A stretch of DNA of 34,985 bases from a virus: positions 1 through 34,985 of the IMG/VR virus record IMGVR_UViG_3300030430_002218, one strand, 5' to 3'. The notes below the pieces were generated by a model. It had not been told where the DNA came from, did no database searches, and saw only the letters and a list, made by a program, of their open reading frames with translations. Positions 10,686 to 34,135 of the stretch are shown piece after piece. The stretch's first letter is position 1. Every line of letters starts with the position of its first letter. Both the position numbers and the translations under genes were made by a program.

Positions 10686-11740
10686 AGATCGCAATTATCA
10701 CCGACACGCACTTTGGTGCGAAAGGTGATTCCCAACAATTTCTTGAATACACACTCAAATTTTTCGATAACATCTTTTTTCCAACCCTGAAAGAAAGGGG
10801 AATCGTAGATGTTCTTCACTTGGGTGATCTTATGGATCGTCGAAAGTATGTGAACTTTCATACGCTTCATCAAATGCGAACTCGATTTATGGATCGTCTC
10901 GAATCAGAAAACATCAACGTACACTGTATTGTTGGCAATCATGACACCTACTTCAAGAACACAAATGAGGTGAACTCACCAAAAGAATTGTTTGATGAGA
11001 AGTATCCAAACTTTCACATCTACACCGAGCCTGTTGTCATTGGTCTTGGAAACAAAAACTTTGCACTGGTTCCGTGGATCAACAAAGAAAATCAAGACGA
11101 AATTTTGCAGTGGGTCCATCAAGTGAATGCACCGATTCTCTGTGGTCACTTTGAACTCGATGGCTTTCAAGTCATGCGAAACGTCAAGCACTCGGGTGGT
11201 CTTGATTCGAGATTTTGTGATCGGTTCGACAGAGTGTGGTCTGGTCATTTTCATCAGAAGCATGAGCAGAACAATGTCACCTACTTCGGTACTGCATACC
11301 AAATGACATTTTCTGATCTCTTCGAAAAGAAGGGGTTCCACATCTATGACACGGAAACAGATGAAATTGAATTCGTCGAAAATCCATATCGTTTGTTTCA
11401 TGCCATTCCGTATCGTGACACTCTTGACATTGATGCAATTGACTACACTCAGTACAAGAACTGCTATGTGAAAGTTTTTGTTCACGACAAGAAGAGTCCG
11501 GCAAAGTTTGATCGAATGCTTGAGCGAATCTATGCCGAGTCTCCAGAGAGCGTAACATTCCTTGAAAACGAAGCGAACGATCCTGTCGATGATGCAACCA
11601 TCGATGAGGATGCTTTGTCTACAGATACCTTGACACTTATCAATCAACACGTTGATGAGTCATTTCGTGATGACCCAGAAGAATGTGAGAGGCTGAAAGA
11701 AGTGTTCAAGGACTTGTTCCTTGAAAGTTTTGATCTATGA
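10682..11740 (+). CDS. gp47: Recombination nuclease subunit gp47 (Mre11-like)
   Basis: A 352-residue calcineurin-type phosphoesterase, the nuclease partner of gp46 in processing double-strand ends for recombination-dependent replication. Metal-binding motifs are in order: DTHFG (Asp8, His10), GDLMD (48-52), GNHD (85-88), CGHFELDGF near 155 and SGHFHQK near 184. T4 gp47 is 339 residues. Translation starts at TTG 10682, overlapping the gp55 stop by four bases (TTGA), with GGAGAG upstream; no in-frame ATG lies nearby before the first catalytic motif. It overlaps gp46 by four bases, in keeping with a two-subunit complex. Confidence 0.96.
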   Translation: MKIAIITDTHFGAKGDSQQFLEYTLKFFDNIFFPTLKERGIVDVLHLGDLMDRRKYVNFHTLHQMRTRFMDRLESENINVHCIVGNHDTYFKNTNEVNSPKELFDEKYPNFHIYTEPVVIGLGNKNFALVPWINKENQDEILQWVHQVNAPILCGHFELDGFQVMRNVKHSGGLDSRFCDRFDRVWSGHFHQKHEQNNVTYFGTAYQMTFSDLFEKKGFHIYDTETDEIEFVENPYRLFHAIPYRDTLDIDAIDYTQYKNCYVKVFVHDKKSPAKFDRMLERIYAESPESVTFLENEANDPVDDATIDEDALSTDTLTLINQHVDESFRDDPEECERLKEVFKDLFLESFDL

Positions 11741-13455
11741 TTGAATTCAAAAAAATTAGATGTAAGAATTTTGGCTCTTTCGGAAATCACTTTACTGAGA
11801 TCGATCTCAATCGGCATCGCACCACTCTCGTTAGTGGTCTAAATGGACATGGCAAATCATTTGCACTGCTCGACTCTATCACGTTTGCTTTGTTTGGTAA
11901 GCCATTTCGAAAAATCAATATTCCTCAACTGGTGAACTCAGTCAATGAAAAGGACTGTGTGGTTGAGGTTGAATTCAATATCGGCGATGCCGAGTACAAG
12001 ATTCATCGGGGACTCAAGCCAAAGAAGTTTGAAGTCTACAAAAATGGTGAATTGATGGATGTGATTGCCCGCTCCAAGGACTACCAAAAGATGCTTGAGG
12101 ATCAGGTTCTCAAAATGAACTACAAGTCTTTCACACAGGTGGTGATCCTTGGAGCATCAGCGTTTGTTCCATTCATGCAACTGTCGGCAGCAGATCGTCG
12201 AACAGTCATTGAGGACATTCTTGATATTCAGGTGTTCTCAAACATGAACTCTGTTTTGAGAGACAAGTCATCTGCCATCAAAAGTGAAATTGGTGAAATC
12301 ACAAGAAATCTTTCGATCAACAAAGAGCGAGGAACAGGTCTTGTCAATCTCATCAAATCTTTGGAGAAGAAGAGCGGCGAGCAGTTGGAAAGTTTGAACG
12401 AAGAAGTGCGTGTCGCAAATGAAACCATCGATACGGCAGAACTGGGAATCGCTGAGATTGATAAAAAAATTAGTGATCTTCTTTCAAAAATCTTAGATGA
12501 AAAGACAGTCAATGATCGTATTCAAAAATATGCACAAGCCAGAATGCGGATGAATCGAGAGATCAAAGAAAATGAAAAGAATAGTCGGTTCTACACGGAC
12601 CATAAAAACTGTCCTACCTGTCATCAGGCAATCTCAGAAGAGAGTCGAGCCGAAGCCACGGCAAAAGCCGATAACGTGATTGACACATTGAATACGGCAC
12701 TGCGAGAACTGGACGAGATGGAAAAACGACAAATTGAACGAAGCAATGAGATTGCATCGATTCAGAAAAGTATTGAAGAACTAAGATCGGATCGGATCGC
12801 ATTCGTTACGACGCAGAAGACAGCAAAAGGTCGGGTGCAGGCGGTCGAAAATCGAAAAGAGAAACTTCAAGAGACAGAAGATGGAGATCTGCAAGATGTC
12901 AAGTCACAACTCGACATTGTGGCACAAGAGCGGGAAAAGTTGATCAAGAGAAAAGAGGATCTACTGATCAAACAAAACACCCTCACGCACGCAGGACACA
13001 TGCTCAAAGACTCAGGTATCAAAGCCAAGGTGATTCGCTACTATCTTCCGATCATCAATGCACTGGTGAACAAGCATCTCAAAGAGATGGATTTCTATGT
13101 TTCGTTTGATCTGGACGAGAACTTCAACGAAACCATCAAGAGTCGGCATCGTGACAAGTTCTCATACATGTCATTCTCCGAGGGTGAAAAGATGCGTATC
13201 GACCTTGCCATTCTGCTTGCATGGCGTGAGGTGTCAAGGCTCAAAAACTCTGCAAACACCAATCTGCTGATTCTGGACGAGGTGTTCGACGCATCACTGG
13301 ATGCCATCGGTTCCGATGATTTCTTGAAATTGCTGGACAACCTTTCAACAAAAAGTCATATTTTTGTGATCTCACACAAGGCAGATCAACTGGTGGACAA
13401 GTTCCAGAACCAGATTACCTTTCAGAAGCAAGGAAACTTTTCCCGACTTGTCTAA
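11737..13455 (+). CDS. gp46: Recombination ATPase subunit gp46 (Rad50/SbcC-like)
   Basis: A 572-residue SMC-family ATPase (T4 gp46 is 560) that works with gp47. Walker A is GLNGHGKS (34-41). Two coiled-coil arms flank a zinc hook CPTC at 292-295. The ABC signature SFSEGEKMR is near 479, Walker B LLILDEVFD near 510, and a switch His lies in VISHKADQL. The ATG overlaps the gp47 stop by four bases. The TAA stop at 13453-13455 is itself the core of the first of two tandem late promoter motifs. Confidence 0.97.
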   Translation: MIEFKKIRCKNFGSFGNHFTEIDLNRHRTTLVSGLNGHGKSFALLDSITFALFGKPFRKINIPQLVNSVNEKDCVVEVEFNIGDAEYKIHRGLKPKKFEVYKNGELMDVIARSKDYQKMLEDQVLKMNYKSFTQVVILGASAFVPFMQLSAADRRTVIEDILDIQVFSNMNSVLRDKSSAIKSEIGEITRNLSINKERGTGLVNLIKSLEKKSGEQLESLNEEVRVANETIDTAELGIAEIDKKISDLLSKILDEKTVNDRIQKYAQARMRMNREIKENEKNSRFYTDHKNCPTCHQAISEESRAEATAKADNVIDTLNTALRELDEMEKRQIERSNEIASIQKSIEELRSDRIAFVTTQKTAKGRVQAVENRKEKLQETEDGDLQDVKSQLDIVAQEREKLIKRKEDLLIKQNTLTHAGHMLKDSGIKAKVIRYYLPIINALVNKHLKEMDFYVSFDLDENFNETIKSRHRDKFSYMSFSEGEKMRIDLAILLAWREVSRLKNSANTNLLILDEVFDASLDAIGSDDFLKLLDNLSTKSHIFVISHKADQLVDKFQNQITFQKQGNFSRLV

Positions 13456-13488: not shown

Positions 13489-14205
13489 ATGAGACTCAAT
13501 CCAAGACGAAATCGTAGTTACATTTCAGAGGAAGGCCCCGGAACATTTCCTCCAACGTGGTGGGATCCCGATGGTGATGGACAACCCGGACCAATTACTA
13601 TTCCCAACATTTTCGATCCAGAGAATCCAGTCAAAATCCCCAATCTACCGTATCCAGTAGATCCAATTGAAATTCCAAACATCTTTGATGATGAAAATCC
13701 AATACGACTTCCCCGACCACTCATACCGGGGGATCCGACAATTTTCCCAACTCAACCAATTTTCAAAAATCCAATACAAATTCCAAATCCATTCAAAGAA
13801 CCCATCTATTTCCCCGGTGGTATTGAACCCATTGATCCCGATGGTGATGGAAGACCGGGAAAAGTAGGTAGAGACTATGAGCCTTGGTGGTGGGACGATC
13901 CAATCGTACACCCAAATCCGGGTCCGCCTCATTATCCAGCAGGCGCACCTTGGCCTCCTCCATGGCCAGATCCACTTGGTGATCCCCCAGACTGGTGGCC
14001 TTCAGGTTGGAACTGGCCTCCAGATTTGCCAAACACATATCCTCCCGGTCATCCAGACAATCCGGATGAAAATCCGCAACCCGAATTTCCGGAACCTGAA
14101 CCAGATTATGGTGAACCTCCGGACAGATATCCAAGTAGACGTAGGCGACCTTCGGAATTCCCACCCCCTTCAATTGATATGCCGGATCAAGGAGGAGTAC
14201 AATAA
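13489..14205 (+). CDS. Proline- and tryptophan-rich protein with DPDGDG motifs (unknown)
   Basis: A 238-residue protein of no recognised family. After a basic N-terminus (MRLNPRRNRSYISE) it is dominated by Pro, Asp, Asn, Trp and Ile. DPDGDGQPG (near 26) and DPDGDGRPG (near 117) frame a run of repeats such as IPNIFD, ENPVKIPN and IPNPF. The second half is Trp/Pro-rich (YEPWWWDDP, PPDWWPSGWNWPPD) and ends with a basic SRRRR patch. The N-terminal YISE14 fits the gp21 (L/I)-x-E cleavage rule, and MRLN plus a Ser-Glu at position 14 recurs in the gene at 16216. The protein should be largely extended or disordered. It begins the late cluster and is coupled by one base to the next, related gene. Confidence 0.8.
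   Translation: MRLNPRRNRSYISEEGPGTFPPTWWDPDGDGQPGPITIPNIFDPENPVKIPNLPYPVDPIEIPNIFDDENPIRLPRPLIPGDPTIFPTQPIFKNPIQIPNPFKEPIYFPGGIEPIDPDGDGRPGKVGRDYEPWWWDDPIVHPNPGPPHYPAGAPWPPPWPDPLGDPPDWWPSGWNWPPDLPNTYPPGHPDNPDENPQPEFPEPEPDYGEPPDRYPSRRRRPSEFPPPSIDMPDQGGVQ
13564..13581 (+). repeat. 18-base partial copy of the DPDGDG repeat
   Basis: Identical to the first 18 bases of the 28-base repeat at 2732 and 13834, in the same reading frame, inside the first proline-rich gene. Confidence 0.85.
13834..13861 (+). repeat. 28-base dispersed repeat, copy 2 (DPDGDGRPG module)
   Basis: Exact match to 2732-2759 in the prohead core gene. Upstream of both copies there is also similar coding (PNPF, IYFP), so the protein-level similarity is longer than the DNA identity. 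Confidence 0.9.
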
Positions 14206-14999
14206 TGTACGGAATAGAAGAAGAACGTCCAGAGGGTCCAGTTCGACCATCTCCTGTGCATCCGTGGTTCACTCCGCAGCCATACAAACCACCACCGGAG
14301 CCTGATATCACTCCGGGTGTACCGTTCGAGGTTGATCCAGATTTTCCCGGTCTACCCGATCCCTTTGATCCCACACCATTTTTTACACCTCTAGATGTGC
14401 CTCTGGATCCCGGCATTTACAAACCATTTGGTCCGGGTGGTCCGGGTGTTCCTATGGACCCAAGACTCATACCATTTATGCCGAAAAGCCCGTTCCCATT
14501 TAGAATCCCAAAATCTATTCCGATAGACCCAAATAACCCATTTGATATTCCGGGCCCGAGTGAGACAGAGCCACCAGACTGGTGGCCAGATGATATTCCT
14601 TGGCCAGATAATAATCCTTTGGAGATTCCTATCGACATTCCCAATTTTCCTTGGGATGATCCAGACGAAAATCCCTATGCTCCCTTCAATCCGTTTGATC
14701 CTGAGCATGTAGATCCGTTAGGTGATCACGATGATGATGGCAGACCAAATTATCTTGACCCACAGAATCCATATTACTTTCCTCCCGGCGATCCAGATCC
14801 ACCAGAAGAGCCGGAAGACCCGGAACCTGCTCAAATGCCGGTGCGAGGTGGTCAACTTGATAGATTAGGAGCCACACCAAATCAACCTAAATTGACTTCT
14901 GATTTTTCTGTGCCTAATGTTGAAGGTGAACTTGCAAAAAGAGCAGCCCAAGCCATGTCTAGACAAAACAAAAATGGAATGATGCGTGGAGGGTATTGA
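14205..14999 (+). CDS. Second proline-rich protein of the cluster (unknown)
   Basis: A 264-residue protein related in style to its neighbour: EPPDWWPDDIPWPDNN matches the PPDWWP segment there, DPDENPYAPFNPF resembles its DENP units, and HDDDGRPN is a worn form of DPDGDGRPG. About the first 210 residues are proline-rich with short repeats (DPFDPTPFF, GPGGPGVPMDP). The last 40 residues differ (VEGELAKRAAQAMSRQNKNG) and may form a helix. GGAGGAG precedes the ATG, which overlaps the previous stop by one base; its own stop overlaps the next ATG. No enzyme motif is visible. A structural or packaged role is inferred from the late promoter and neighbours. Confidence 0.8.
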   Translation: MYGIEEERPEGPVRPSPVHPWFTPQPYKPPPEPDITPGVPFEVDPDFPGLPDPFDPTPFFTPLDVPLDPGIYKPFGPGGPGVPMDPRLIPFMPKSPFPFRIPKSIPIDPNNPFDIPGPSETEPPDWWPDDIPWPDNNPLEIPIDIPNFPWDDPDENPYAPFNPFDPEHVDPLGDHDDDGRPNYLDPQNPYYFPPGDPDPPEEPEDPEPAQMPVRGGQLDRLGATPNQPKLTSDFSVPNVEGELAKRAAQAMSRQNKNGMMRGGY

Positions 15000-17622: not shown

Positions 17623-18156
17623 ATGAACATCTTCGTAGTAGACGAACATCCCGTCCGTGCTGCCCATCAAATGGTTGATAAGCACATCGTAAAAATGATT
17701 TTAGAGGCAGGTCAAATGCTCTCTACGGCTCATCGGGTTCTTGATGGTGACGAGTATTACGACCGCACCAAAAACAATAGACGCATCAAGCGATGGAAAC
17801 TCAACGACGAGCGAGAGGACAAACTCTGGAAGGCTTCGTTCGTTGGACATCCCTGTACACAGTGGACAATGAAAACACAGATGAACTATCGGTGGCACGC
17901 GACACACGCAATGGCATTGTGTCGAGAGTACACTCACCGCTACGACAAGATACACAAAGCACAGCCACTCATTGAGTATTTGTTCAATCGAGAGCCAAGA
18001 AACATTCCAGTCGGAAAACTTACCAAGTTTGCAGTTGCAATGCCTGACCAATACAAGGTAGAATGCCCTATCGAATCCTATCGAAACTACTACAAAGGAG
18101 AGAAGGCATACTTCGCAAAATGGAAGAAACGCGAAGTGCCGGAGTGGTGGCAATGA
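17623..18156 (+). CDS. Conserved phage protein, possibly pyrimidine-dimer glycosylase-like
   Basis: A 177-residue protein beginning MNIFVVDEHPVRAAHQMVDK and continuing HIVKMILEAGQMLSTAHR. Later come GHPCTQWTMKTQMNYRW and ALCREYTHRYDKIHKAQP. This pattern is common in T4-like and other large phages. The order (DKHxVKM, then HPCTxW, then an ALCxEY helix) faintly resembles the Pyr_excise family of DNA glycosylases, but I would not assign activity on that. It follows its own promoter with no leader and overlaps galE by four bases. Confidence 0.75.
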   Translation: MNIFVVDEHPVRAAHQMVDKHIVKMILEAGQMLSTAHRVLDGDEYYDRTKNNRRIKRWKLNDEREDKLWKASFVGHPCTQWTMKTQMNYRWHATHAMALCREYTHRYDKIHKAQPLIEYLFNREPRNIPVGKLTKFAVAMPDQYKVECPIESYRNYYKGEKAYFAKWKKREVPEWWQ

Positions 18157-19154
18157 ACAAAGATCAAAAAGTATTGGTGACAGGCGGTGCAGGATACATT
18201 GGTAGCCACATCGTTCTTTCGTGTTTGGATGCAGGCTATGGTGTCGTTGTGATTGATCGTGACGAAAAAGCCTGTAAGCATTTGCAGAAGTGTCTGAGTC
18301 GCAGAAAGAAACTCAAAGTCTTCAACGCAGACATTGAGAACGAGATCTACTTGGATGGGGTCTTTGAGAACGAGAACATCGGTGCAATCATTCACTGTGC
18401 TGCCGACATCTCTGTTCCAGAGTCCGTAGACAATCCACTCAAGTATTACTACAACAACACAGCAAAAAGCATCAAACTGCTTGAGAGAGCAAAGAAGTTC
18501 GGAGTGAATCGTTTCATTCTTTCGTGTACTGCTGCGGTGTATGGTGAACCATCTAGTGACGTTGCCAGTTGCATTCCAGAGACACAGCCCTGCAAACCGA
18601 TCAATGCCTACGGCGAGTCGAAGTTGATGTTTGAAACTATTCTCAAGAAGTACAGTGCCACCAACTCAAATTTCAAATACACATCGCTTCGGTATTTCAA
18701 TGTTGCAGGAAACGACATTCAGAATCGTGTGCAAGACATCAACTGGCGATACAAAGAAAATGTTGTTCCAAAAATCTTGTCTCGACTCATTCAAGGTAAG
18801 GGTGAGTTTACAATTTTTGGAAAAGATTACAACACGCCAGATGGCACATGCGTTCGTGATTACATTCATCCCACCGATCTTGCAAATGCACATTTGATGG
18901 CATTGAAGCAAGGAGTGACGGGTGTGTTCAATCTCGGTACAAACAAGGGACATTCAGTTTGGGATTTGGTCAAGGAAGCAGTCAATATTGTTGATGCCGA
19001 ATTGAATGTGTTGAAAGGAAACAGACGCAAAGGTGATCCCGAAATTCTTGTTGCCAACGCAACAAAGTTTATGAAGAAAACAGGATGGGAACCATCCTAC
19101 TCAATCAATGATATCATGCGAACAGCATACAAGGCATACTTGAAAGTAAAGTAA
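18153..19154 (+). CDS. galE: UDP-glucose 4-epimerase family (GalE)
   Basis: A 333-residue extended short-chain dehydrogenase/reductase. The NAD-binding motif GGAGYIGSH is at 11-19, the catalytic Tyr-x-x-x-Lys is YGESK (Tyr153, Lys157), and the SCTAAVYGEP and RYFNVAGND segments are typical of GalE. It should interconvert UDP-glucose and UDP-galactose or their N-acetyl forms. The chosen ATG overlaps the previous stop by four bases; an upstream in-frame ATG at 18063 lies inside the neighbour and would place 30 foreign residues before the Rossmann fold. It is the first of several sugar-nucleotide genes in the window. Confidence 0.9.
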   Translation: MNKDQKVLVTGGAGYIGSHIVLSCLDAGYGVVVIDRDEKACKHLQKCLSRRKKLKVFNADIENEIYLDGVFENENIGAIIHCAADISVPESVDNPLKYYYNNTAKSIKLLERAKKFGVNRFILSCTAAVYGEPSSDVASCIPETQPCKPINAYGESKLMFETILKKYSATNSNFKYTSLRYFNVAGNDIQNRVQDINWRYKENVVPKILSRLIQGKGEFTIFGKDYNTPDGTCVRDYIHPTDLANAHLMALKQGVTGVFNLGTNKGHSVWDLVKEAVNIVDAELNVLKGNRRKGDPEILVANATKFMKKTGWEPSYSINDIMRTAYKAYLKVK

Positions 19155-20681: not shown

Positions 20682-21737
20682 ATGAGTAAAATTATTGATG
20701 GGAAGGTCGGAGGAGAACTCTGGAGAAAAGAAAACGGACTGCAAAAGACGGCTCTGATCACAGGTATCAATGGGCAAGATGGTTCGTACCTCGCTGAGTT
20801 TCTTTTGGGAAAGGGATACGAAGTCCACGGCATTCTGAAAAGAAACTCAGTATCAGAAAATCAAACTGCAAGACTTGATAACGTTTATGACAAACTACAT
20901 TTGCACTATGGTGATCTGAATGATCTGTCTTCTCTCATCTCTGTCTTGCAAAATGTGAACCCTGATGAAATCTACAACCTAGCGGCACAATCACATGTGC
21001 GGATTAGTTTCGATATGCCGATCTACACCGCTGCCACTACGGGTCTTGGTGTTCTCAATGTTTTTGAGGCGTGTCGTTTGATCTGTCCAGAGGCAAAGGT
21101 TTACCAAGCGTCATCATCCGAAATGTTTGGAAACTCTATCGACGATGATGGCTTCCAAAGAGAAACTACACCGATGATGCCAGTTAGTCCGTATGGTTGT
21201 GCAAAGGTGTTTGCATACAACATTGCAAGAAACTATCGTAATTCATACAACATGTTCATTTCAAATGGTATTTTGTTCAATCACGAATCACCCCGTCGAG
21301 GCTCAAACTTTGTGACGAGTAAGATCGTCAAGGGTGCGGTTGCCATCAAAAAGGGAAAACAAAAGTATCTCAGTCTTGGAAACCTGAATGCAACTAGGGA
21401 CTGGGGACACGCGAAAGATTATGTAAAAGCAATGTGGATGATGTTGCAACAAGAAACGCCTGATGATTTTGTGTGTTCGACAGGAACATCAAACTCTGTC
21501 CGTGACTGTGTTCAATATGTTTTTAGTAAATTAGATTTGGAAGTCGCCAAGCATGTTCGGGTTGATCCCAAATATTTTAGACCAGAAGAACTGACTGATC
21601 TAAAAGGGGATTCAACCAAACTAAGAACACAACTTGGCTGGACTCCTGATTACACGTTTGAAACTTTGCTTGACGAGATGATCGAGCATGAGTATACTGG
21701 ATCGTATGTTGATGTCCCCTATGATGCAATGAGGTGA
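20682..21737 (+). CDS. gmd: GDP-mannose 4,6-dehydratase
   Basis: A 351-residue SDR enzyme that turns GDP-mannose into GDP-4-keto-6-deoxymannose, the branch point to GDP-fucose, GDP-colitose and related sugars. The NADP motif is GINGQDGSYLAE (28-39). NLAAQSHV, QASSSEMFG, the catalytic SPYGCAKVF and FNHESPRRGSNFVTSKI are all Gmd hallmarks. The first 20 residues are not part of the usual fold, so a later start is possible but none is obvious. It lies between the clamp and clamp-loader genes, which are adjacent in T4, and probably feeds the enzymes at 32070 and 32966. Confidence 0.95.
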   Translation: MSKIIDGKVGGELWRKENGLQKTALITGINGQDGSYLAEFLLGKGYEVHGILKRNSVSENQTARLDNVYDKLHLHYGDLNDLSSLISVLQNVNPDEIYNLAAQSHVRISFDMPIYTAATTGLGVLNVFEACRLICPEAKVYQASSSEMFGNSIDDDGFQRETTPMMPVSPYGCAKVFAYNIARNYRNSYNMFISNGILFNHESPRRGSNFVTSKIVKGAVAIKKGKQKYLSLGNLNATRDWGHAKDYVKAMWMMLQQETPDDFVCSTGTSNSVRDCVQYVFSKLDLEVAKHVRVDPKYFRPEELTDLKGDSTKLRTQLGWTPDYTFETLLDEMIEHEYTGSYVDVPYDAMR

Positions 21738-23765: not shown

Positions 23766-24185
23766 ATGGAAAATACAGACAAGATCGTGGAATCTCTTGT
23801 AGAAGTTACATTGAATGATCCACAAGACTTTTTGAAAGTCAAAGAAACACTAACAAGGATTGGAGTGTCATCCCGCGTTGGGAACAAACTTTACCAGTCG
23901 TGTCACATTTTGCACAAACGAGGTAAGTATTACATCACACACTTCAAAGAACTTTTCGCCCTCGATGGCTTGCCATCCAAAATGACAGATGATGATTTCG
24001 GTCGTAGAAACACAATTATTGGTCTACTTGCCGAGTGGAACTTATTGAAAATTGTCGATGAAAAAAGTTGTGAGAATCCTCTTGCATCTTTGAGAAAAAT
24101 CAAGATAATCTCTCATAAGAATCGACATGAATGGGAACTGATTCCCAAATATCACATTGGACACAAGCCACCAAAGGAGGAGTGA
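23766..24185 (+). CDS. regA: Translational repressor RegA
   Basis: A 139-residue protein matching T4 RegA (122 residues), which binds early mRNAs at their initiation regions and represses translation, including its own. The diagnostic parts are TLNDPQDFLKVKETLTRIGV (residues 15-34), LYQSCHILHKRGKYYITHFK and HEWELIPKYHIG near the C-terminus. Relative to T4 it has about 14 extra N-terminal residues (MENTDKIVESLVEV). In T4 regA is followed directly by gene 43; here about 10 kb of other genes come between. It overlaps the next ATG by one base. Confidence 0.95.
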   Translation: MENTDKIVESLVEVTLNDPQDFLKVKETLTRIGVSSRVGNKLYQSCHILHKRGKYYITHFKELFALDGLPSKMTDDDFGRRNTIIGLLAEWNLLKIVDEKSCENPLASLRKIKIISHKNRHEWELIPKYHIGHKPPKEE

Positions 24186-24874
24186 TGGAAATTGATCTTC
24201 GTAATGTAAGAACTCGTTGGATGAATCTAGACAGAGACACGGAAAAAGCAGAACTCATGATTGAGTTGCTTGATCGTCTTGGCATGAAAAACCACGAAAG
24301 ATTTTCCGCCGTCACCGGCATCGAACCACATGAGGGTGTTCGTCGTGGTGAAGAACATTATCGAAGTTGTGCAGAATCCCATTTTGCAATTCTTGAAGAA
24401 ACAATTCTCAAAGACGGAGAGCCTGTTCTGATTCTTGAAGATGATGTTGAAAATACAGAGGCGATACACGACTTTGTTTCTAAAGAATACGAATCCCAAC
24501 TCCTGTGTCCCGATGACTCAGACGCAATCTATCTTGGCACATCTCATGGCGATGGTCAGTACCACGCAGAGAAAGTTGAAAACTCCAGTTGGCTCAAAAT
24601 CCGAGGTGTTTTTGCCACACACGCGATTCTGTACCTTAGTAAAACTTATGCGGAAAAAACAATTGAAGTTGGCAAAAGGTACATCTACGAAAAAAACACA
24701 CCCTTTGATGTAGGATTGGCAAAAGATCTTCAACCTACGAAGTCTGTGTATGCCCCAATTATTCCTTTCTTCTACCAAGCAGACTCAAAAAATTCTGTGA
24801 ACAAATGGGAAGGTATTACAAAGACCCCATTGAAATTTGGCACTCAGTTCAAAATCGGTACTGTGTCGTGGTGA
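24185..24874 (+). CDS. Glycosyltransferase family 25-like
   Basis: A 229-residue protein with the GT25 (LPS galactosyltransferase type) pattern: RWMNLDRDTEKAELM near residue 10, RFSAVTGIEPHEGV near 38, AESHFAILEETI and PVLILEDDVE near 80, the acidic motif that binds metal and sugar nucleotide. It may use UDP-galactose, which the GalE at 18153 could supply (inference). AAGGAGGAG precedes the ATG, which overlaps the regA stop; an upstream start at 24131 lies inside regA and is rejected. It begins the inserted sugar block. Confidence 0.8.
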   Translation: MEIDLRNVRTRWMNLDRDTEKAELMIELLDRLGMKNHERFSAVTGIEPHEGVRRGEEHYRSCAESHFAILEETILKDGEPVLILEDDVENTEAIHDFVSKEYESQLLCPDDSDAIYLGTSHGDGQYHAEKVENSSWLKIRGVFATHAILYLSKTYAEKTIEVGKRYIYEKNTPFDVGLAKDLQPTKSVYAPIIPFFYQADSKNSVNKWEGITKTPLKFGTQFKIGTVSW

Positions 24875-25626
24875 AAAAAAATCTATCTTTCAATTCTCTC
24901 GGGGGCTACGGTAGACTTGGTAACCAAATGTTTCAATACGCAGCAGTATACTCTGCGGCAAAAAGTCTTGGTATGTCTGCCACTGCAAACTTGTCCGCAA
25001 GCACACTCAAAGATTGTTTTGTCTTAGGGGGTGTCAAGGATGAAATTGTCGAGCCAGATGCCATATACAATGAAGCGAATTTTGCATACGATGGAATTTT
25101 GAAAACTGCACCTACCGACATGAACATTGATGTTGTCGGTTACTTTCAAAGTGAAAAAAACTTTTCAGAACACAAGACTCAGATCAAAGAGCAATTTGAA
25201 TTCAAGGATGAGGTAAGGGAATCTGCACTGGAAAAATTACCTGATGGTGTTTTGGTTTCTGTTCATGTTCGAAGGGGTGACTATTTACAACTGTTCGATA
25301 CTCACACGAATCAAGGTGAAATGTATTACAAAAAGGCTATCGAAAAATTCAAAGATCATCGACCAGTAGTTTTCTCTGATGACATTGAATGGTGTAAAAA
25401 CGAAATGGAATGGCTTGACAATGATCCTGTATTCATGGACAATGATCAATACACCGATCTTTGTCTCATGTCTAATTGTAATACACACATCATAGCCAAT
25501 AGCAGTTTTAGTTGGTGGGCTGCATGGTTGAGTGGTGGACAAACTGTTGCCCCCAAAGAATGGTTTGGTCAGAAAGGACCAGAGAATTGGTCAGACATCT
25601 ATTGTGAAGGGTGGGTTGTATGTTAG
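24871..25626 (+). CDS. Alpha-1,2-fucosyltransferase family (GT11)
   Basis: A 251-residue GT11 enzyme. GYGRLGNQMFQYAAVYSAA near residue 12, VSVHVRRGDYLQLF near 128 (the HxRRGDY motif that binds the GDP-sugar) and IIANSSFSWWAAWLSG near 208 are the three family motifs. I prefer the GTG at 24871, which overlaps the previous stop as GTGA like many junctions here; an ATG at 24805 would overlap the neighbour by 70 bases. Neither has a clear Shine-Dalgarno. The donor could be GDP-fucose or GDP-colitose, since some GT11 relatives transfer colitose in O-antigens. Expected to act on lipopolysaccharide or a phage glycan. Confidence 0.85.
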   Translation: MKKNLSFNSLGGYGRLGNQMFQYAAVYSAAKSLGMSATANLSASTLKDCFVLGGVKDEIVEPDAIYNEANFAYDGILKTAPTDMNIDVVGYFQSEKNFSEHKTQIKEQFEFKDEVRESALEKLPDGVLVSVHVRRGDYLQLFDTHTNQGEMYYKKAIEKFKDHRPVVFSDDIEWCKNEMEWLDNDPVFMDNDQYTDLCLMSNCNTHIIANSSFSWWAAWLSGGQTVAPKEWFGQKGPENWSDIYCEGWVVC

Positions 25627-26408
25627 TGAAAAATAGTCTTGATCCTAGTCTACTTTACCTAAGTGAAGTTTTTGATAATGATGAGACACTGCTTGTTGAT
25701 ATTTCAATTTTGGCAGATTACGATAAAGATGCGATTTGTTGGATGGTGGAAAGTCCTGACATTCTTCAAGAGTGGGGCAAGTTGTACCGCGTAGATTTTT
25801 ATGATGCAATGAACAAACTATTGGAAAAAAACTTTTTCAAACATGTGATAACGGCAGACCCTACGTTCGCAAAATATGAATGTGTTCATATGACAAAACC
25901 ATGTGCGCCGTCGTGGATCAAAAATGAAGATGCTAAGATGTATGAAAAATCAGATCTTGTCACCTTCATCACATCAGCAAAAACATATACTCCACTTCAA
26001 AAAAAGCGTCGAAAACTCGCCGAGGACATGATCTCAAAAAACATCAAAGTCTATGGTCGAGGCTTTGTTGAAGTTGACAACAAACTTGATGTCTTGAAGC
26101 ATTATCGTTTTTGCGTGGTGATTGAGAATGGTATTCACGAAAACTACCATACAGAAAAAATTCTGGATTGTCTTCGCACAGGAACAGTTCCAATCTATCT
26201 TGGTGATCCTATGATCGGAAACAATTTCAACATCGAGGGTATGATTACTGTTGAAGACACAGATCAAATTCTTGAGATCCTTGATTCCTTGTCTGACGAA
26301 AAATACGAGTCTATGCTTCCCGCCATTCAAGACAATCTAGAAAGAGCGTTGAAGTATGACAATAGCCCTGAGAAAATTCTAGAAGAGTTCTTTGCGGCAC
26401 ATAAATAA
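25620..26408 (+). CDS. Alpha-1,3-fucosyltransferase family (GT10)
   Basis: A 262-residue protein with the GT10 C-terminal signature FCVVIENGIHENYHTEKILD and LRTGTVPIYLGDP near residues 165-195, which binds the GDP-sugar. The N-terminal half resembles the acceptor domain (AICWMVESPDILQEWG). The ATG at 25620 lies seven bases inside the previous gene and has AGGGTGGG upstream; a GTG three codons before is less likely. Two different GDP-sugar transferase families side by side suggest a dedicated glycan. The last codons contain a late promoter for the next gene. Confidence 0.85.
   Translation: MLVKNSLDPSLLYLSEVFDNDETLLVDISILADYDKDAICWMVESPDILQEWGKLYRVDFYDAMNKLLEKNFFKHVITADPTFAKYECVHMTKPCAPSWIKNEDAKMYEKSDLVTFITSAKTYTPLQKKRRKLAEDMISKNIKVYGRGFVEVDNKLDVLKHYRFCVVIENGIHENYHTEKILDCLRTGTVPIYLGDPMIGNNFNIEGMITVEDTDQILEILDSLSDEKYESMLPAIQDNLERALKYDNSPEKILEEFFAAHK
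26401..26407 (+). promoter_or_regulatory. Late promoter ATAAATA at the end of the GT10 gene
   Basis: It overlaps the TAA stop of the GT10 gene (26406-26408) and lies 22 bases before the ATG of the next gene, with CAGGAG in between. Confidence 0.6.
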
Positions 26409-26429
26409 TTGAACACACAGGAGAAAATT

Positions 26430-27689
26430 ATGAGTAAGCGACCCAGCGTAACCCTTTGTATGATTGTCAAAAACGAAGAACACATCATCAAAGAATGTCT
26501 TGAATCCATTTACAAGCACATCGACAGATACGACATTTCCGACACCGGCTCAACCGACAAAACAAAAGAAATCATCAAAGAGTTCTTTGATGAAAAAGGC
26601 ATTCCCGGTGAAGTCTATGACATTCCTTGGAAGGGATTTGGTAAGTCAAGAACACAGGCATTTGAAAACGCAAAGCCTCACGCTGACTATGCATGGGTTA
26701 TCGACGCTGACGATAGACTTCAAGGAGACTTCAAGTATCCAAAGGAGATGACTGCCGACAGTTACGCACTCAACATTCATCGAGGTGAGTTCAACTGGTG
26801 GCGACAGCAGATTTTCAAACTTGAGGCAGACTGGGAATACGTTGGGGTGCTTCACGAATACGCAACAAGCCGAAAGGCAGCAGAGGGAGGCTTCACACCA
26901 TCCTCGACGAAACTTGAGGGAAAGTATTGTATTGATGCTCGTACAATGGGTGACAGAACTGTTCAGTTTGGTGAAGATCAAGCCGCAAAGTATACAAAAG
27001 ATGCTGAAACATTGATTGACTGTCTTGAAAATCCTGAAAATGAAAACTATGAACCGGACAATCTTCGCTACATGTTCTACACGGCACAGTCATACTTTGA
27101 TGCTCAAAATTATGAAAAGGCGTGTGAGTGGTATGAAAAGCGAGCAGTCAAGGGTGGCTGGGAAGAAGAAGTTTGGTATTGTGTCTATCGCATTGCCATC
27201 TGTAAGTGTTTGTTGAAAAAGCCTTGGGAGGAAGCACAGGATCACTTCTTACAAGCATGGAACATTCGCCCATCTCGCCCAGAGCCACTATATCATCTCG
27301 CAAGAATTCATCGGCAAAATGGAAATCCAAGACTTGGCTACCTGTTTGCAATGCAGGCAAACAAAATCCCACCACCAGTGAATGACATTTTGTTCTTGGC
27401 ACACGACATCTATAACTGGATGATTCTCGACGAAGTTGCTTCGACTGCATGGCACGCGGGTGACATGATCGCAGGTCTTGAAGCCTCTAATAAACTGTTG
27501 GAGGAGAAAAGGTTCCCCAAAGAACATCAAGAAAGAATCGTAAACAACTTTGCTCAGTATGCCCAGTGGCTTGAACAAAAACGTCTTGAAGAACAGGCTC
27601 AATACGAAGAGCAGGTCAAGAAGGCAGCCGAGGAAAAAATGAAAAGAACAAAGACACCCGCACCAAGGAGAAAAAAGGCTAAGAGGTAA
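26430..27689 (+). CDS. Family 2 glycosyltransferase with TPR-like C-terminal half
   Basis: A 419-residue protein. The GT2 domain starts SVTLCMIVKNEEHIIKECLE, then SDTGSTDKTKEI and the DxD-type motif WVIDADDRL near residue 90. LEADWEYVGVLHEY near 137 is typical of GT2 enzymes that carry tetratricopeptide-like helices behind, and the segment 200-370 has such helices (AQSYFDAQNYEKACEWYEKR). The tail is a Glu/Lys helix ending in very basic RRKKAKR, unusual for this family. ATG 26430 with CAGGAG is preferred over a TTG at 26409. The acceptor is unknown. It overlaps the collagen-like gene by one base. Confidence 0.85.
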   Translation: MSKRPSVTLCMIVKNEEHIIKECLESIYKHIDRYDISDTGSTDKTKEIIKEFFDEKGIPGEVYDIPWKGFGKSRTQAFENAKPHADYAWVIDADDRLQGDFKYPKEMTADSYALNIHRGEFNWWRQQIFKLEADWEYVGVLHEYATSRKAAEGGFTPSSTKLEGKYCIDARTMGDRTVQFGEDQAAKYTKDAETLIDCLENPENENYEPDNLRYMFYTAQSYFDAQNYEKACEWYEKRAVKGGWEEEVWYCVYRIAICKCLLKKPWEEAQDHFLQAWNIRPSRPEPLYHLARIHRQNGNPRLGYLFAMQANKIPPPVNDILFLAHDIYNWMILDEVASTAWHAGDMIAGLEASNKLLEEKRFPKEHQERIVNNFAQYAQWLEQKRLEEQAQYEEQVKKAAEEKMKRTKTPAPRRKKAKR

Positions 27690-28900
27690 TGGCAGGATTC
27701 ACCTTCCCATCTAGTGTGACTTTCGGAACCACCCTGACCATCGGTGTAAAAAAATATCGATGGAACGGGTTTGGTTTCGATTTGCTTAGTCTGGAAGGTC
27801 CAACTGGTGCTACTGGTTCTGATGGTGCAACAGGAGCCACAGGAGCCACGGGTACAACGGGAACCACAGGAACCACGGGTACAACGGGAACCACAGGGAC
27901 TACAGGAACCACGGGTACAACGGGGACTACAGGAACCACCGGCACGACAGGAACTACGGGATCAATGGTTGGTGTCGGCGACTACACTGGTTTGAATAAT
28001 TCTTTCCTAACTCCGGGGTCAGACGGTCAGGCAAACTTTTCAACCTTCTTCGCCCAGTTCTTTGCGGATGACGCAGATAATACAGACTTGACAACATACT
28101 TCAATGCAGCAACTCGCGGCACAGTTTTTGTCACACACGCAACTGACCCATCAAGATTTGTCAACTATGCGTTTACAAGTCATATTGTGCCAACGGGGCG
28201 TGTTCATCAATTCAATGGTTCAATAATTTCAACAAGTGAAGACACAAGTTCCTTGCCACTTTTTGCAAACACAGCCGTCAAAATGTTTTATGTGAATGAT
28301 GGTGCAACTGGAGCCACCGGACCTGTCGGTGACTTTGTTGAGTTTTTGAACGGAGCAACCGGAGCGATTACGACTGAGGGCTTGACTTTTGGCTTTGCTG
28401 GCATCTCGGTTGGTGCTTCTGGGATTACAAACAATGGTGCTTTTCACAAAGTCGTAAAGACAAGTGCTGGTATCTCAATGGATACCGCAGGACTCACCTT
28501 CCCCGACAGCACTCATCAAAAAGGTGCGGCAAAGGGTGTCGCAATATTTACGATAAAGTCTTCATCAGCCTTTTCGCTTGGTCAAAAGATTGAGGGAATG
28601 TATCGTATGCCATACGACGCAAAATTACTTGAGTTGGAGGGTAAACTCTCGTCCGCAGGAAATGTTAGAGGTCACATTGAGATTGCTGGTCCCGACTTTG
28701 GTAACCCAACAACAAGCCGCCAAGTAGCGATAGATTTTACTCACAACGCTGGTGGCATTTCTTTCGATAATGGTAGTCTGGGTACTTTCAATCTTTCTAT
28801 ACCATCAGTCACAGCAGGAAACTTTCTGTATGTCAACATGACATCGAACAATGCTGGTGCGACTGGTATGCAACTATTCTTGACTTACGAAACGAGGTAA
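27689..28900 (+). CDS. Collagen-like phage fibre or adhesin protein
   Basis: A 403-residue protein. Residues 1-36 form a short N-terminal domain (TFGTTLTIGVKKYRWNG). Residues 37-90 are 18 perfect Gly-x-y triplets, twelve of them Gly-Thr-Thr, which should form a collagen-type triple helix. A second short run, GATGATGPVG, lies near 205. The C-terminal 120 residues (IFTIKSSSAFSLGQKIEGMY to the end) look like a beta-sandwich head. This design, trimeric stalk plus globular tip, is common in phage tail fibres and baseplate or capsid appendages. It is coupled to the GT2 gene upstream and followed by a beta-helix protein, so host recognition is likely, though virion location is inferred. Confidence 0.85.
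   Translation: MAGFTFPSSVTFGTTLTIGVKKYRWNGFGFDLLSLEGPTGATGSDGATGATGATGTTGTTGTTGTTGTTGTTGTTGTTGTTGTTGTTGTTGSMVGVGDYTGLNNSFLTPGSDGQANFSTFFAQFFADDADNTDLTTYFNAATRGTVFVTHATDPSRFVNYAFTSHIVPTGRVHQFNGSIISTSEDTSSLPLFANTAVKMFYVNDGATGATGPVGDFVEFLNGATGAITTEGLTFGFAGISVGASGITNNGAFHKVVKTSAGISMDTAGLTFPDSTHQKGAAKGVAIFTIKSSSAFSLGQKIEGMYRMPYDAKLLELEGKLSSAGNVRGHIEIAGPDFGNPTTSRQVAIDFTHNAGGISFDNGSLGTFNLSIPSVTAGNFLYVNMTSNNAGATGMQLFLTYETR
27797..27958 (+). repeat. Tandem 9-base repeat coding Gly-x-y triplets
   Basis: Eighteen 9-base units in frame, most GGAACCACR or GGTACAACG. A 21-base stretch is identical at 27868-27888 and 27904-27924. Such repeats can change copy number by slippage in units of three codons without breaking the frame. 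Confidence 0.9.
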
Positions 28901-30824: not shown

Positions 30825-31292
30825 ATGATTGATTGTGCGGCTACTAAGACAAAAGTTCTTGGATTCTACGCTCTACATCCACGGGCAAAACTTCCAATGA
30901 AACAGACACATGGTGCGGCGTGTTTTGATATACACGCTTGCTGTGATGACTTGATTACTCTCAACCCCGGTGAAAGAGCATTGATTCCTACAGGTTTGAT
31001 TTTTGATATTCCCGAAGACCATTCCGTGAGGATTCACACACGATCTTCATGGGCGGCTATCAAAGGTATTGGTCTTTCTGTGTCACAGGGGATTATTGAT
31101 TCCGATTATGTTGAAGAAGTCTTTGTGCCAATGGTAAACAATACTGACAAACTGTTTCACATTCGCAGCGGTGAACGCATCGCACAGATTGAACTTGTAA
31201 AAACCATTCCGACAATCAACACATGGATCGAAGACCGTCCCACAAAACGTGGCAATCGTGATGGTGGATTCGGAAGCACGGGAGAGGAATAA
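30825..31292 (+). CDS. dut: dUTP diphosphatase
   Basis: A 155-residue trimeric-type dUTPase that hydrolyses dUTP to dUMP, keeping uracil out of DNA and feeding dTMP synthesis. All five motifs are visible: GAACFDIHA (30-38), RSSW (73-76), GIIDSDYVEE (89-98), RIAQIEL (118-124) and RGNRDGGFGSTG (142-153). AAGGAG lies before the ATG. It is a nucleotide-metabolism gene placed within the fibre and sugar block and overlaps the next gene by one base. Confidence 0.95.
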   Translation: MIDCAATKTKVLGFYALHPRAKLPMKQTHGAACFDIHACCDDLITLNPGERALIPTGLIFDIPEDHSVRIHTRSSWAAIKGIGLSVSQGIIDSDYVEEVFVPMVNNTDKLFHIRSGERIAQIELVKTIPTINTWIEDRPTKRGNRDGGFGSTGEE

Positions 31293-32062
31293 TGTTTGAT
31301 CATGTAATTGTGACGCATCCAAAAGATTTTGAATGTTTGCCTTTATGTGTCGAAGGTCTTGAAAACATTTCAGGAAGTTCAGGCAAAGCGTATGTAATCT
31401 CATCGGAAGATCCAAAGTTGAATGGTGTAGAATTTGTGAATGAAAAAGAGTTTGATCACATCATCAAATTTTCAGATATTAGAGATCGCCTTGTAAAAGC
31501 ATACCCATCAACGAATGGTTTGCAGGATGGGTCGGATAGAACTGGGTGGTACTACCAACAGTTTTTGAAGATGTACTCGGGAGAACTTTTGAACACCACT
31601 GACAGGTTTCATGTTCTTTGTTCTGACACAATCTTTTTGAATGATCCGGGTTTCAATGAAAATGTTTTTCATTTTCAACTCAATCCAATGAACTGGCAGC
31701 CCTACAAAGTTTCAATCAACAATATTTTCGAAGAGGGATTTTGGATTGGAGACATGACAATGCACCACATGTTGTTCTGTCGAAATGGATTACAGAAAAT
31801 GAAAGAACGTATCGAGGAACAACACGGGAAAGACATGTGTAACTCAATCTTAGATCGCATGACATATGAAAGTGGTGCAAACATGTCAGAGTATGCTTTG
31901 TTTGGAAACTGGATGGTAAGAACCGAACCCGAAAAATCTATTCAATATTTTTTGAGGCAACAGGATCTTTTGGACCAACCACTACCTACAAAAGAAGTCT
32001 TGAAACAATACAAAGATAATGGTTATCATTATGTCAATTCCCATGAGCATAGTAGAACGTGA
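31292..32062 (+). CDS. Glycosyltransferase-like protein (DUF6492 type)
   Basis: A 256-residue protein resembling DUF6492-type putative glycosyltransferases: HVIVTHPKDFECLPLCVEGL at the start, GWYYQQFLKMYSGEL near residue 85, and VLCSDTIFLND near 108, which takes the place of a DxD motif as SDT. WIGDMTMHHMLFCRNGLQKM follows near 152. Donor and acceptor are unknown. It is followed by the epimerase at 32070 after seven bases. Confidence 0.7.
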   Translation: MFDHVIVTHPKDFECLPLCVEGLENISGSSGKAYVISSEDPKLNGVEFVNEKEFDHIIKFSDIRDRLVKAYPSTNGLQDGSDRTGWYYQQFLKMYSGELLNTTDRFHVLCSDTIFLNDPGFNENVFHFQLNPMNWQPYKVSINNIFEEGFWIGDMTMHHMLFCRNGLQKMKERIEEQHGKDMCNSILDRMTYESGANMSEYALFGNWMVRTEPEKSIQYFLRQQDLLDQPLPTKEVLKQYKDNGYHYVNSHEHSRT

Positions 32063-32069
32063 GGTGAAT

Positions 32070-32966
32070 ATGAATACTTTTGTTACTGGTGGAAATGGAA
32101 TGCTTGGATCTCATATTTCGTACGGGTTGAAGCCTACGGCAAATGAGGTCAATCTTTTGAACTTCAACGAAACACTAAAGTTCATGAGAGAAAATGATGT
32201 CACAACTGTGATTCATTGTGCAGCGAAAGTTGGTGGTTTGAAGTACAACATGGATCACAACTCTGACATGCTTCTTGAAAATCTTGAAATGAACAATAAT
32301 TTGTTGAGGGCATCGATCGAGTGTGGTGTGAAAAAAATTCTTTCAGTTCTTTCAACATGTGTTTTCCCTGCAACCGCACAAGAGCCGTTCGGAGAAGATG
32401 ACATTCACAACGGATTTCCACACCCTACAAACTTTGGTTATGCCTACTCAAAGAGAACTCTTCTTGTTGCGTCGGAGGCAATACGACAACAACATGGAAT
32501 CAATTGCATGAACATCATTCCAAGTAATATGTTTGGTGCAGGAGACAATTTCAATTTGAACGAGTGTCATGTAATCCCAGCGTTGATTCGCAAAGCATAC
32601 GAATCAAAAAATGGTAAGTTGCTTGTAGGTGGAACTGGTGTCGCACGAAGAGAATTTCTTTATGCAAAGGACGCAGCCAGAGTTATGGAATGGATGATTG
32701 ACAATATTGATACGTCAGTCCCCGTGATCGTTTCACCTGATGATGACATTTCGATTCTTGAAATTTCCAAACTAATCGCATCAAGGTTTGATCTTGAGAT
32801 TGAATTTGATGAAACAATTCCAGATGGTCAAATTACACGGAGATCTGACAACTCGCACTTCAAGTCATACTCAGATCAGTGTGATGTCAACCTTACAAAT
32901 TTTGAAGATGCTTTGAATGAGACAATAGATTGGTTCGTCGAAAACTACAAAAATGCGAGGCTGTAA
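32070..32966 (+). CDS. GDP-fucose synthase or GDP-colitose synthase (Fcl/ColC-type)
   Basis: A 298-residue SDR epimerase/reductase. It has GGNGMLGSH (7-15) for NADP, STCVFP with Cys97, Tyr124-x-x-x-Lys128 and His167 in CHVIPALIRKAY. In GDP-fucose synthase the equivalent Cys and His are the acid/base pair that epimerises C3 and C5 of the keto sugar, so activity is likely intact. ColC is a homologue that converts the ColD product to GDP-L-colitose, so the neighbour at 32966 makes either role possible. GAGG precedes the chosen ATG. An upstream in-frame ATG at 32019 lies inside the preceding gene and is not used. Confidence 0.88.
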   Translation: MNTFVTGGNGMLGSHISYGLKPTANEVNLLNFNETLKFMRENDVTTVIHCAAKVGGLKYNMDHNSDMLLENLEMNNNLLRASIECGVKKILSVLSTCVFPATAQEPFGEDDIHNGFPHPTNFGYAYSKRTLLVASEAIRQQHGINCMNIIPSNMFGAGDNFNLNECHVIPALIRKAYESKNGKLLVGGTGVARREFLYAKDAARVMEWMIDNIDTSVPVIVSPDDDISILEISKLIASRFDLEIEFDETIPDGQITRRSDNSHFKSYSDQCDVNLTNFEDALNETIDWFVENYKNARL

Positions 32967-34135
32967 TGACTATAAAACTTGTGGATGATACAATCACACA
33001 AAAAGACTTAGACGCTGTATCTGATTGGCTGCGATCTGGACCGAGATTGACCAAGGGTGACCTGACAGTTCAATTTGAAAATGCGTGGAGTGAATGGGTC
33101 GGATGCAAACATGCAGTCTTTGTAAATTCAGGTTCATCTGCTAATCTCGCAATCATCTATGCTCTTACACTTACTGAAAAACTCAAAAACAAGAAGATTG
33201 TCTATCCTTGTTTGTCATGGGTAACCACAGTTGCACCTGCCATACAATTTGGCTTAGAACCAATTTTGTGTGATACAGACAGATCAACTCTTGGTCTAGA
33301 TCTCATGCACCTTGAAGTTTTGTTCAAAGAACATAAGCCTGCTGCACTAATGCTTGTTCATGCTTTGGGATTTCCAAATCAGATGAAAGAGATTCTTTCT
33401 CTTTGTGAAAAATACGGAGTGCTTTTGTTGGAGGACTCCTGCGAAACAGTTGGTAGCACATACGGCAGAACAAAGACAGGAAACTTTGGGTTTGCTTCTT
33501 CATTTAGCACTTACTTTGGTCATCATTTCTCGACGATTGAGGGTGGATTTGTTTGCACAAATGATACTGAATTTTGCAATCTTTTGAAAAGTATTAGATC
33601 GCACGGGTGGTCCCGGGATCTAGATTCAGTGACACAAAAAAAATTACAGTCGGACTACAATGTTGATGATTTCAGAAACCTGTATACCTTTTACTATCCG
33701 GGTTTCAATCTTAGATCAACAGATCTTCAAGCGTTCATTGGTCTTCGACAACTTGAAAAATTAGATGACATCTGTGAAAAAAGAAATCAAAACTACAAAA
33801 TCTACCACTCACTGATTGAAAACAATTTTTGGAAAATTGATGATTCGGCGTTTGAGTACGTTTCTAATTTTGCGTACCCAATCATTCACCCAAACAAAGA
33901 TCACATTGTCGCTGCTCTTGAGGCAAATGATATTGAATGCAGACCGTTGATCGCAGGCAACATCGGCAAGCAGCCTTTCTATACGTCAAGGTATGGATCA
34001 CAAAACTACCCGTTTGCAGATGTGATACATGACTACGGACTGTATGTTCCAAATCACCAAAATCTTTCGGTGAAACAAATCGAAACTATTTCGCACATCG
34101 TAAACAAATCAATCAAGACTAAGGAGATATTATGA
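32966..34135 (+). CDS. ColD-type GDP-4-keto-6-deoxymannose 3-dehydratase
   Basis: A 389-residue DegT/DnrJ/EryC1/StrS-family PLP enzyme, the same size as E. coli ColD (388). NSGSSANL (54-61) and LLLEDSCET (153-161, Asp157 binding the PLP nitrogen) are present. The usual Schiff-base lysine in SFxxxKxLxxGEGG is replaced: the sequence reads STYFGHHFSTIEGG with His186-His187. This His is the mark of the dehydratases ColD and the CDP-sugar E1 type, which deoxygenate C3 instead of aminating a sugar. Gmd makes the ColD substrate and the gene at 32070 could finish GDP-colitose. The E1 type needs a reductase not seen here, which favours ColD. GAGG precedes the ATG. Confidence 0.85.
   Translation: MTIKLVDDTITQKDLDAVSDWLRSGPRLTKGDLTVQFENAWSEWVGCKHAVFVNSGSSANLAIIYALTLTEKLKNKKIVYPCLSWVTTVAPAIQFGLEPILCDTDRSTLGLDLMHLEVLFKEHKPAALMLVHALGFPNQMKEILSLCEKYGVLLLEDSCETVGSTYGRTKTGNFGFASSFSTYFGHHFSTIEGGFVCTNDTEFCNLLKSIRSHGWSRDLDSVTQKKLQSDYNVDDFRNLYTFYYPGFNLRSTDLQAFIGLRQLEKLDDICEKRNQNYKIYHSLIENNFWKIDDSAFEYVSNFAYPIIHPNKDHIVAALEANDIECRPLIAGNIGKQPFYTSRYGSQNYPFADVIHDYGLYVPNHQNLSVKQIETISHIVNKSIKTKEIL

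Follow-up and report, generated by a model that had tools for sequence, protein, structure and literature searches.

GDP-L-colitose, a rare 3,6-dideoxy sugar, serves in the decoration of cell surfaces, and the pathway leading to it is known. The closest described system is that of E. coli ColD (WbdK; structures 2gms, 2r0t, 3b8x and 3gr9), whose reaction scheme and contrast with E1 are set out in a review of nucleotide-sugar dehydratases (PMC8987622). Unlike E1 and SpnQ, ColD does without a [2Fe-2S] cluster and hydrolyses its own intermediate, PMP being recycled by glutamate, and neither ColD nor E1 displays transaminase activity under such conditions (PMC8987622). True ColD operons of Parasedimentitalea, Paracoccus and Chelatococcus, with proteins 61–67% identical to E. 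coli ColD, have the order gmd-'fcl'-colD, and in E. coli O55 'fcl' and colD overlap by 4 nt. Among phages, a contiguous gmd-fcl-dehydratase-GT11 block is present in two cultured cyanophages, S-CAM7 and ACG-2014f. Phage homologues of the dehydratase are named in GenBank "aminotransferase", "hypothetical protein" or "putative CDP-4-keto-6-deoxy-D-glucose-3-dehydrase", the protein of S-CAM7 being the one under an RfbH-type (CDP-4-keto-6-deoxyglucose 3-dehydratase) label. The idea of an earlier note on the DNA studied here that few phages carry such genes is thus contradicted by the same gene set in cultured cyanophages and by relatives in hundreds of viral contigs. Phage-encoded colitose synthesis itself is the subject of no paper found in an open-access library. 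Here, we describe a locus from the 34,985-base virus record IMGVR_UViG_3300030430_002218 of IMG/VR (the whole stretch is called the window below), for which the best explanation, with a probability of roughly 0.55, is a ColD-type 3-dehydratase of a sister clade that would lead to GDP-L-colitose together with Gmd and an Fcl-family enzyme. What is new is this clade beside ColD, how widely it occurs in phages and the other partners with which its members are found, the pathway and the phage homologues in GenBank, under other names, being known already.

Genes of the Window

The window is a fragment of the genome of a T4-like phage, bearing a portal protein (PHROG 213, 9e-192) and a major head protein (PHROG 138, 2e-145); the latter is at most ~54% identical to its counterparts from marine cyanophages, pelagiphages and phages of Methylophilales, too little to point to a host. 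The following genes, all on the plus strand, are relevant to the synthesis or transfer of sugars or give the context:
32966..34135, +, predicted ColD-type PMP/PLP-dependent nucleotide-sugar 3-dehydratase with His186 (PF01041, DegT_DnrJ_EryC1, 8.6e-64; ColD 2gms 2.8e-56; model; tree)
32070..32966, +, Fcl-family GDP-sugar epimerase/reductase, candidate GDP-L-colitose or GDP-L-fucose synthase (NF047922 2.9e-55; 4e5y 2.9e-61; catalytic set; TAATG overlap)
20682..21737, +, GDP-mannose 4,6-dehydratase (Gmd), maker of the expected substrate (PF16363 1.6e-121; TIGR01472 410.2 bits)
24805..25626, +, GT11 glycosyltransferase, fucosyl-/colitosyltransferase candidate (PF01531 2.8e-32)
25611..26408, +, GT10-type glycosyltransferase of the alpha-1,3-fucosyltransferase family (PF00852 1.2e-10; alpha-1,3-fucosyltransferase 2nzw 3.2e-8)
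24131..24874, +, GT25-like glycosyltransferase, context (PF01755 7.9e-5, under cut-off)
18063..19154, +, GalE-type UDP-hexose 4-epimerase, context (TIGR01179 326.8 bits, cut-off 262)
31292..32062, +, DUF6492-like putative glycosyltransferase directly 5′ of the Fcl-family gene, context (PF20102 1.6e-4, under cut-off)

The block of S-CAM7 and ACG-2014f resembles this locus in being phage-borne, T4-like and composed of the same four gene families, and the nearest cultured-phage counterparts of the window GT11 gene are the ACG-2014f genes located directly 3′ of the dehydratase. The genes are contiguous there, whereas in the window Gmd and GT11 lie 7–12 kb from the Fcl-dehydratase pair; identity is ~35%, and both the dehydratase and Fcl of the cyanophages fall on other branches. 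Elsewhere in the window, a collagen-like (GTT)n repeat protein (27689–28900), a possible glycosylated fibre, follows right after a GT2-TPR glycosyltransferase (26409–27689), and two proline-rich low-complexity ORFs with no assigned role (13489–14999) are placed between a gp46-like gene (11737–13455) and an ORF at 14996.

A Predicted Dehydratase of a Sister Clade to ColD

The dehydratase ORF is open and intact, and its product, as had been noticed before, has the length of E. coli ColD (389 versus 390 aa) and histidines at the place of the PLP lysine, within the motif FSTYFG-H186-H187-FSTIEGG. Of 206 aligned homologues, 184 have His and 22 have Lys in the column of His186. Since the ColD mutants H188N (3b8x) and H188K (2r0t) alter the first histidine of the pair, which aligns with His186, this residue is taken as catalytic, and H187, being variable in the clade, is not. 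Homologues with the catalytic histidine kept but Thr, Ile, Ala or Gln at the second position (e.g., FGHT and FGHI) include L137, L141, L148, L150, L154, L165 and others. The invariant active-site set is complete: all residues compared in the alignment are identical to those of ColD (S55, G56, A59, N60, W85, D157, C159, E160, S181, H186, E192, R211, R217, F242, N248, R250, E324, R326, P327, G331 and N332). The protein shares with E1/RfbH enzymes (AscC; 3bcx, 3bb8) the fold, His in place of Lys and a GN motif near the C-terminus; unlike the window protein, E1 is ~437 residues long, acts in a CDP context and has [2Fe-2S] cysteines, and its CxCxxxC stretch was not found in the dehydratase upon alignment. 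At W85, E160, F242, R250 and E324 the dehydratase sides with ColD and not with E1, RfbH carrying F, D, Y and K at the first four of these positions.

The same placement follows from searches and trees. Sequence search against the PDB returned the four ColD entries first (2.8e-56 to 5e-55), E1/RfbH next (1e-39) and then aminotransferases. For the AlphaFold model (pLDDT 95.6), the top Foldseek matches were all ColD, and VIA Z was 49.2 with ColD (1.9–2.0 Å over ~370 residues) as against 45.7 with E1 and 45.1 with GDP-perosamine synthase, a modest gap, so that sequence and tree weigh more. In the IQ-TREE phylogeny of 67 sequences, lysine-type enzymes separated (99), then RfbH, and then a group joining ColD with phage and bacterial proteins (SH-aLRT 97); FastTree with 179 sequences gave the same grouping of ColD and the window clade apart from RfbH (0.997). 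Inside this group, two sister clades were resolved, one comprising ColD and operon-confirmed relatives (99) and the other, large and composed of phage and bacterial proteins, comprising the window dehydratase (99). In both trees, the dehydratase fell outside the clade to which E. coli ColD belongs, in an unnamed sister clade, and it is about 30% identical to ColD. The attribution to the ColD type proposed in the earlier note is upheld: sequence, phylogeny, residues of the active site and the structural model all make E. coli ColD the nearest characterised enzyme, in preference to E1/RfbH and aminotransferases, with the correction that the protein groups beside the ColD clade and not within it. 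We consider it very probable from these comparisons that the gene encodes a DegT-fold 3-dehydratase of ColD type without Fe-S cluster, which is not a ColD orthologue.

Substrate and Partner Enzyme

The Gmd postulated as the source of substrate is a real full-length gene (TIGR01472 E-value 6.8e-123, score slightly under the cut-off of 415) located 11 kb from the dehydratase. Among 53 phage records with the dehydratase gene, some of them near-identical, raw counts gave 37 with Gmd, 42 with strong Fcl (E < 1e-40), 6 with an RmlB-like gene, 4 with transketolase and none with CDP-glucose 4,6-dehydratase; the scan with a Lys-type DegT protein, serving as gene-context control, matched two loci only. 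For comparison, Fcl was detected in 77 of 50,697 phage isolate records, which suggests that it is rare among them overall. The Rhodobacteraceae L011 and L013, belonging to the closest bacterial relatives, have dehydratase, gmd and fcl in a row. Taken together, the co-occurrence with Gmd, the lack of CDP-glucose 4,6-dehydratase among the 53 records and the gmd-fcl-dehydratase arrangements make GDP-4-keto-6-deoxymannose, the Gmd product, the likely substrate.

As in the ColD operons, the neighbor is an Fcl-family gene and Gmd resides in the same element. The TAA of the Fcl-family gene overlaps the ATG of the dehydratase by one base (TAATG), and its product, an extended SDR, keeps the Ser-Cys...Tyr-xxx-Lys...His catalytic set of E. 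coli Fcl. The earlier description of this upstream gene as an Fcl/ColC-type epimerase with intact Cys and His therefore stands for the family and the catalytic residues, and is not supported for ColC. The NF047922 score is 188 versus an equivalog cut-off of 500, and the nearest characterised relative, by the best PDB match, is human GDP-L-fucose synthase FX. At seven positions picked after the fact, where one residue is common to four ColC sequences and another is present in E. coli Fcl and human FX, the window protein has none of the seven ColC states and six of the seven Fcl states. The tree likewise puts it on the FX side away from ColC, in a wider clade including many plain fcl-gmd pairs. 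By tree and residue signature, the partner is accordingly classed as Fcl/FX-type and not as ColC, in which it differs from the partner of ColD, and colitose as the end product is what we infer.

Search with the window Fcl sequence alone retrieved one relative, and that with an alignment 498. In the Fcl tree, the window gene groups (98) with those of L005 and L115, both dehydratase carriers, and not with 18 plain fcl-gmd sequences. More generally, phage Fcl genes adjacent to the dehydratase mostly branch separately from Fcl genes of phages lacking it: on this tree, the adjacent/absent labels change 9 times versus a shuffled mean of 23 for the group without dehydratase. Closely related dehydratases nevertheless adjoin different Fcl lineages, E. 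coli-like in L096, L097 and L101 and FX-like in the window, and a true reductase of the ColC clade is the neighbor of a dehydratase in both L045 and L059, the dehydratase of the bacterium L045 falling into the larger clade of the window dehydratase in the IQ-TREE phylogeny.

In the proposed pathway, PMP of the dehydratase would react at C4 with the ketone that the phage Gmd introduces, forming a Schiff base. His186 would act as base and acid expelling the C3 hydroxyl, and glutamate would presumably regenerate PMP, no Fe-S cluster and no partner reductase being required. The Fcl-family enzyme, whose gene overlaps translationally, would, if it accepts the 3-deoxy intermediate, as we infer, then epimerise C5 and reduce C4 giving GDP-L-colitose, which the GT11 and GT10 transferases of the phage may use. 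The three-gene route to GDP-L-colitose suggested earlier thus retains its dehydratase type and likely substrate and loses the ColC identity of its epimerase. We slightly favor GDP-L-colitose as the end product on the grounds of the gene order shared with true ColD operons, of the largely separate lineages of phage Fcl genes adjacent to the dehydratase and of the ColC-clade reductase accompanying the L045 dehydratase. Counted against it are the FX-like partner devoid of ColC states, the clade rich in plain fcl-gmd pairs, the distance to Gmd and the fact that GDP-fucose alone explains the two fucosyltransferase-family genes.

Alternative Readings and Alternative Partners

The main rival to colitose is a branch point, where Gmd and the Fcl-family enzyme supply GDP-L-fucose to GT10 and GT11, and the ColD-type enzyme diverts a part of the intermediate towards a different 3,6-dideoxy sugar. 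Its synthesis would be completed by the host or by an enzyme encoded outside the 35-kb fragment, such as an SDR-like reductase or a split transketolase yielding a branched sugar. The window Gmd and Fcl-family gene would suffice for the GDP-L-fucose route (Gmd plus Fcl, WcaG/FX), which, unlike the locus described here, uses no 3-dehydratase. The FX/Fcl character of the partner and the presence of both fucosyltransferase families speak for this possibility, and so does the gene context of relatives. The closest phage dehydratases among the matches listed (L091, L092, L098 and L099, 62–64% identical) have as neighbor, in place of Fcl, an SDR-like protein of ~260 aa that is divergent (L092:9144–9977, L098:8849–9649, L091:8836–9651 and others), matching GDP_Man_Dehyd of Pfam with 32 bits at best or nothing at all. 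In at least 20 related phages, this SDR is situated directly 5′ of the ColD-like gene, and in no case do it and Fcl both adjoin that gene; it is a candidate alternative reductase; because the closest relatives adjoin it instead of Fcl, the end product of the clade may vary. Split transketolase (N and C halves, the closest solved relative being a split-chain transketolase) together with SDR is located at or near the dehydratase in phages L005 (11155–13810), L115, L096 and L097, all from the subclade of the window, and in bacteria L049, L071, L077, L079, L084, L087 and L088, suggesting a C4-branched 3,6-dideoxy sugar. Searches of the window found neither the SDR nor transketolase, which for a fragment of 34,985 bases means little. 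Weighing further against a branch point are the one-base overlap of the Fcl-family and dehydratase genes and the single copy of Fcl (E < 1e-40) in every phage record but one among the 42 with strong Fcl. Altogether, we regard the branch point as a possible but doubtful explanation, and the synthesis of GDP-L-colitose remains the preferred one.

A 3-dehydratase of the same fold acting on another nucleotide sugar (e.g., dTDP), or being inactive in this phage, is improbable: the RmlB-like gene in 6 of the 53 records and the lack of Gmd in the sequenced part of 16 could be read in this way, against which stand the intact ORF, the full invariant active-site set and Gmd in the same window. An E1/RfbH-type CDP-4-keto-6-deoxyglucose 3-dehydratase, as the S-CAM7 homologue is labelled, was rejected by the tree, by the missing Fe-S cysteines and RfbH-specific residues and by the zero count of CDP-glucose 4,6-dehydratase in the 53 phage records, so that its rank as second-best family by sequence and 211 bits with NF011936 (RfbH), versus a cut-off of 423, leave it very little probability. 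A protein resembling RfbH/E1, with the stretch WGRGCYC rich in cysteine, does occur in Synechococcus phage S-H68 (L191:7830–9125), clustered with genes annotated as dTDP-glucose 4,6-dehydratase and 3,5-epimerase and not with Gmd. A 4-aminotransferase such as GDP-perosamine synthase, sharing fold, Pfam family and substrate (3bn1 and 3dr4 are among the matches) and the name of PHROG 3139, is just as hard to credit in view of His for Lys throughout the clade, the separate clade of Lys-type enzymes (99) and the lack of transaminase activity in ColD and E1, and a lysine aminotransferase was rejected by His186.

Spread and Meaning for Phages

Scanning viral sequences with the family alignment revealed at least 589 relatives, lysine-type members perhaps included, the best 80 of which are 46–64% identical to the window dehydratase. 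PHROG 3139, called "aminotransferase", matches this His-type protein at 4.9e-70, and members of this type are probably misnamed by it. A wider picture, less likely than not, is that environmental phages may harbor a modular 3,6-dideoxy-sugar factory, where the partner of a ColD-related dehydratase can be exchanged among Fcl-type reductases, the undescribed SDR of ~260 aa and split transketolase to produce several 3,6-dideoxy GDP sugars, 4-C-branched ones included, some of them new. If the explanation preferred here is right, a widespread phage family filed as "aminotransferase" would consist of sugar 3-dehydratases, and many phages would be equipped to produce 3,6-dideoxy sugars for surfaces, with which virions might be glycosylated or the envelope of the infected host altered.
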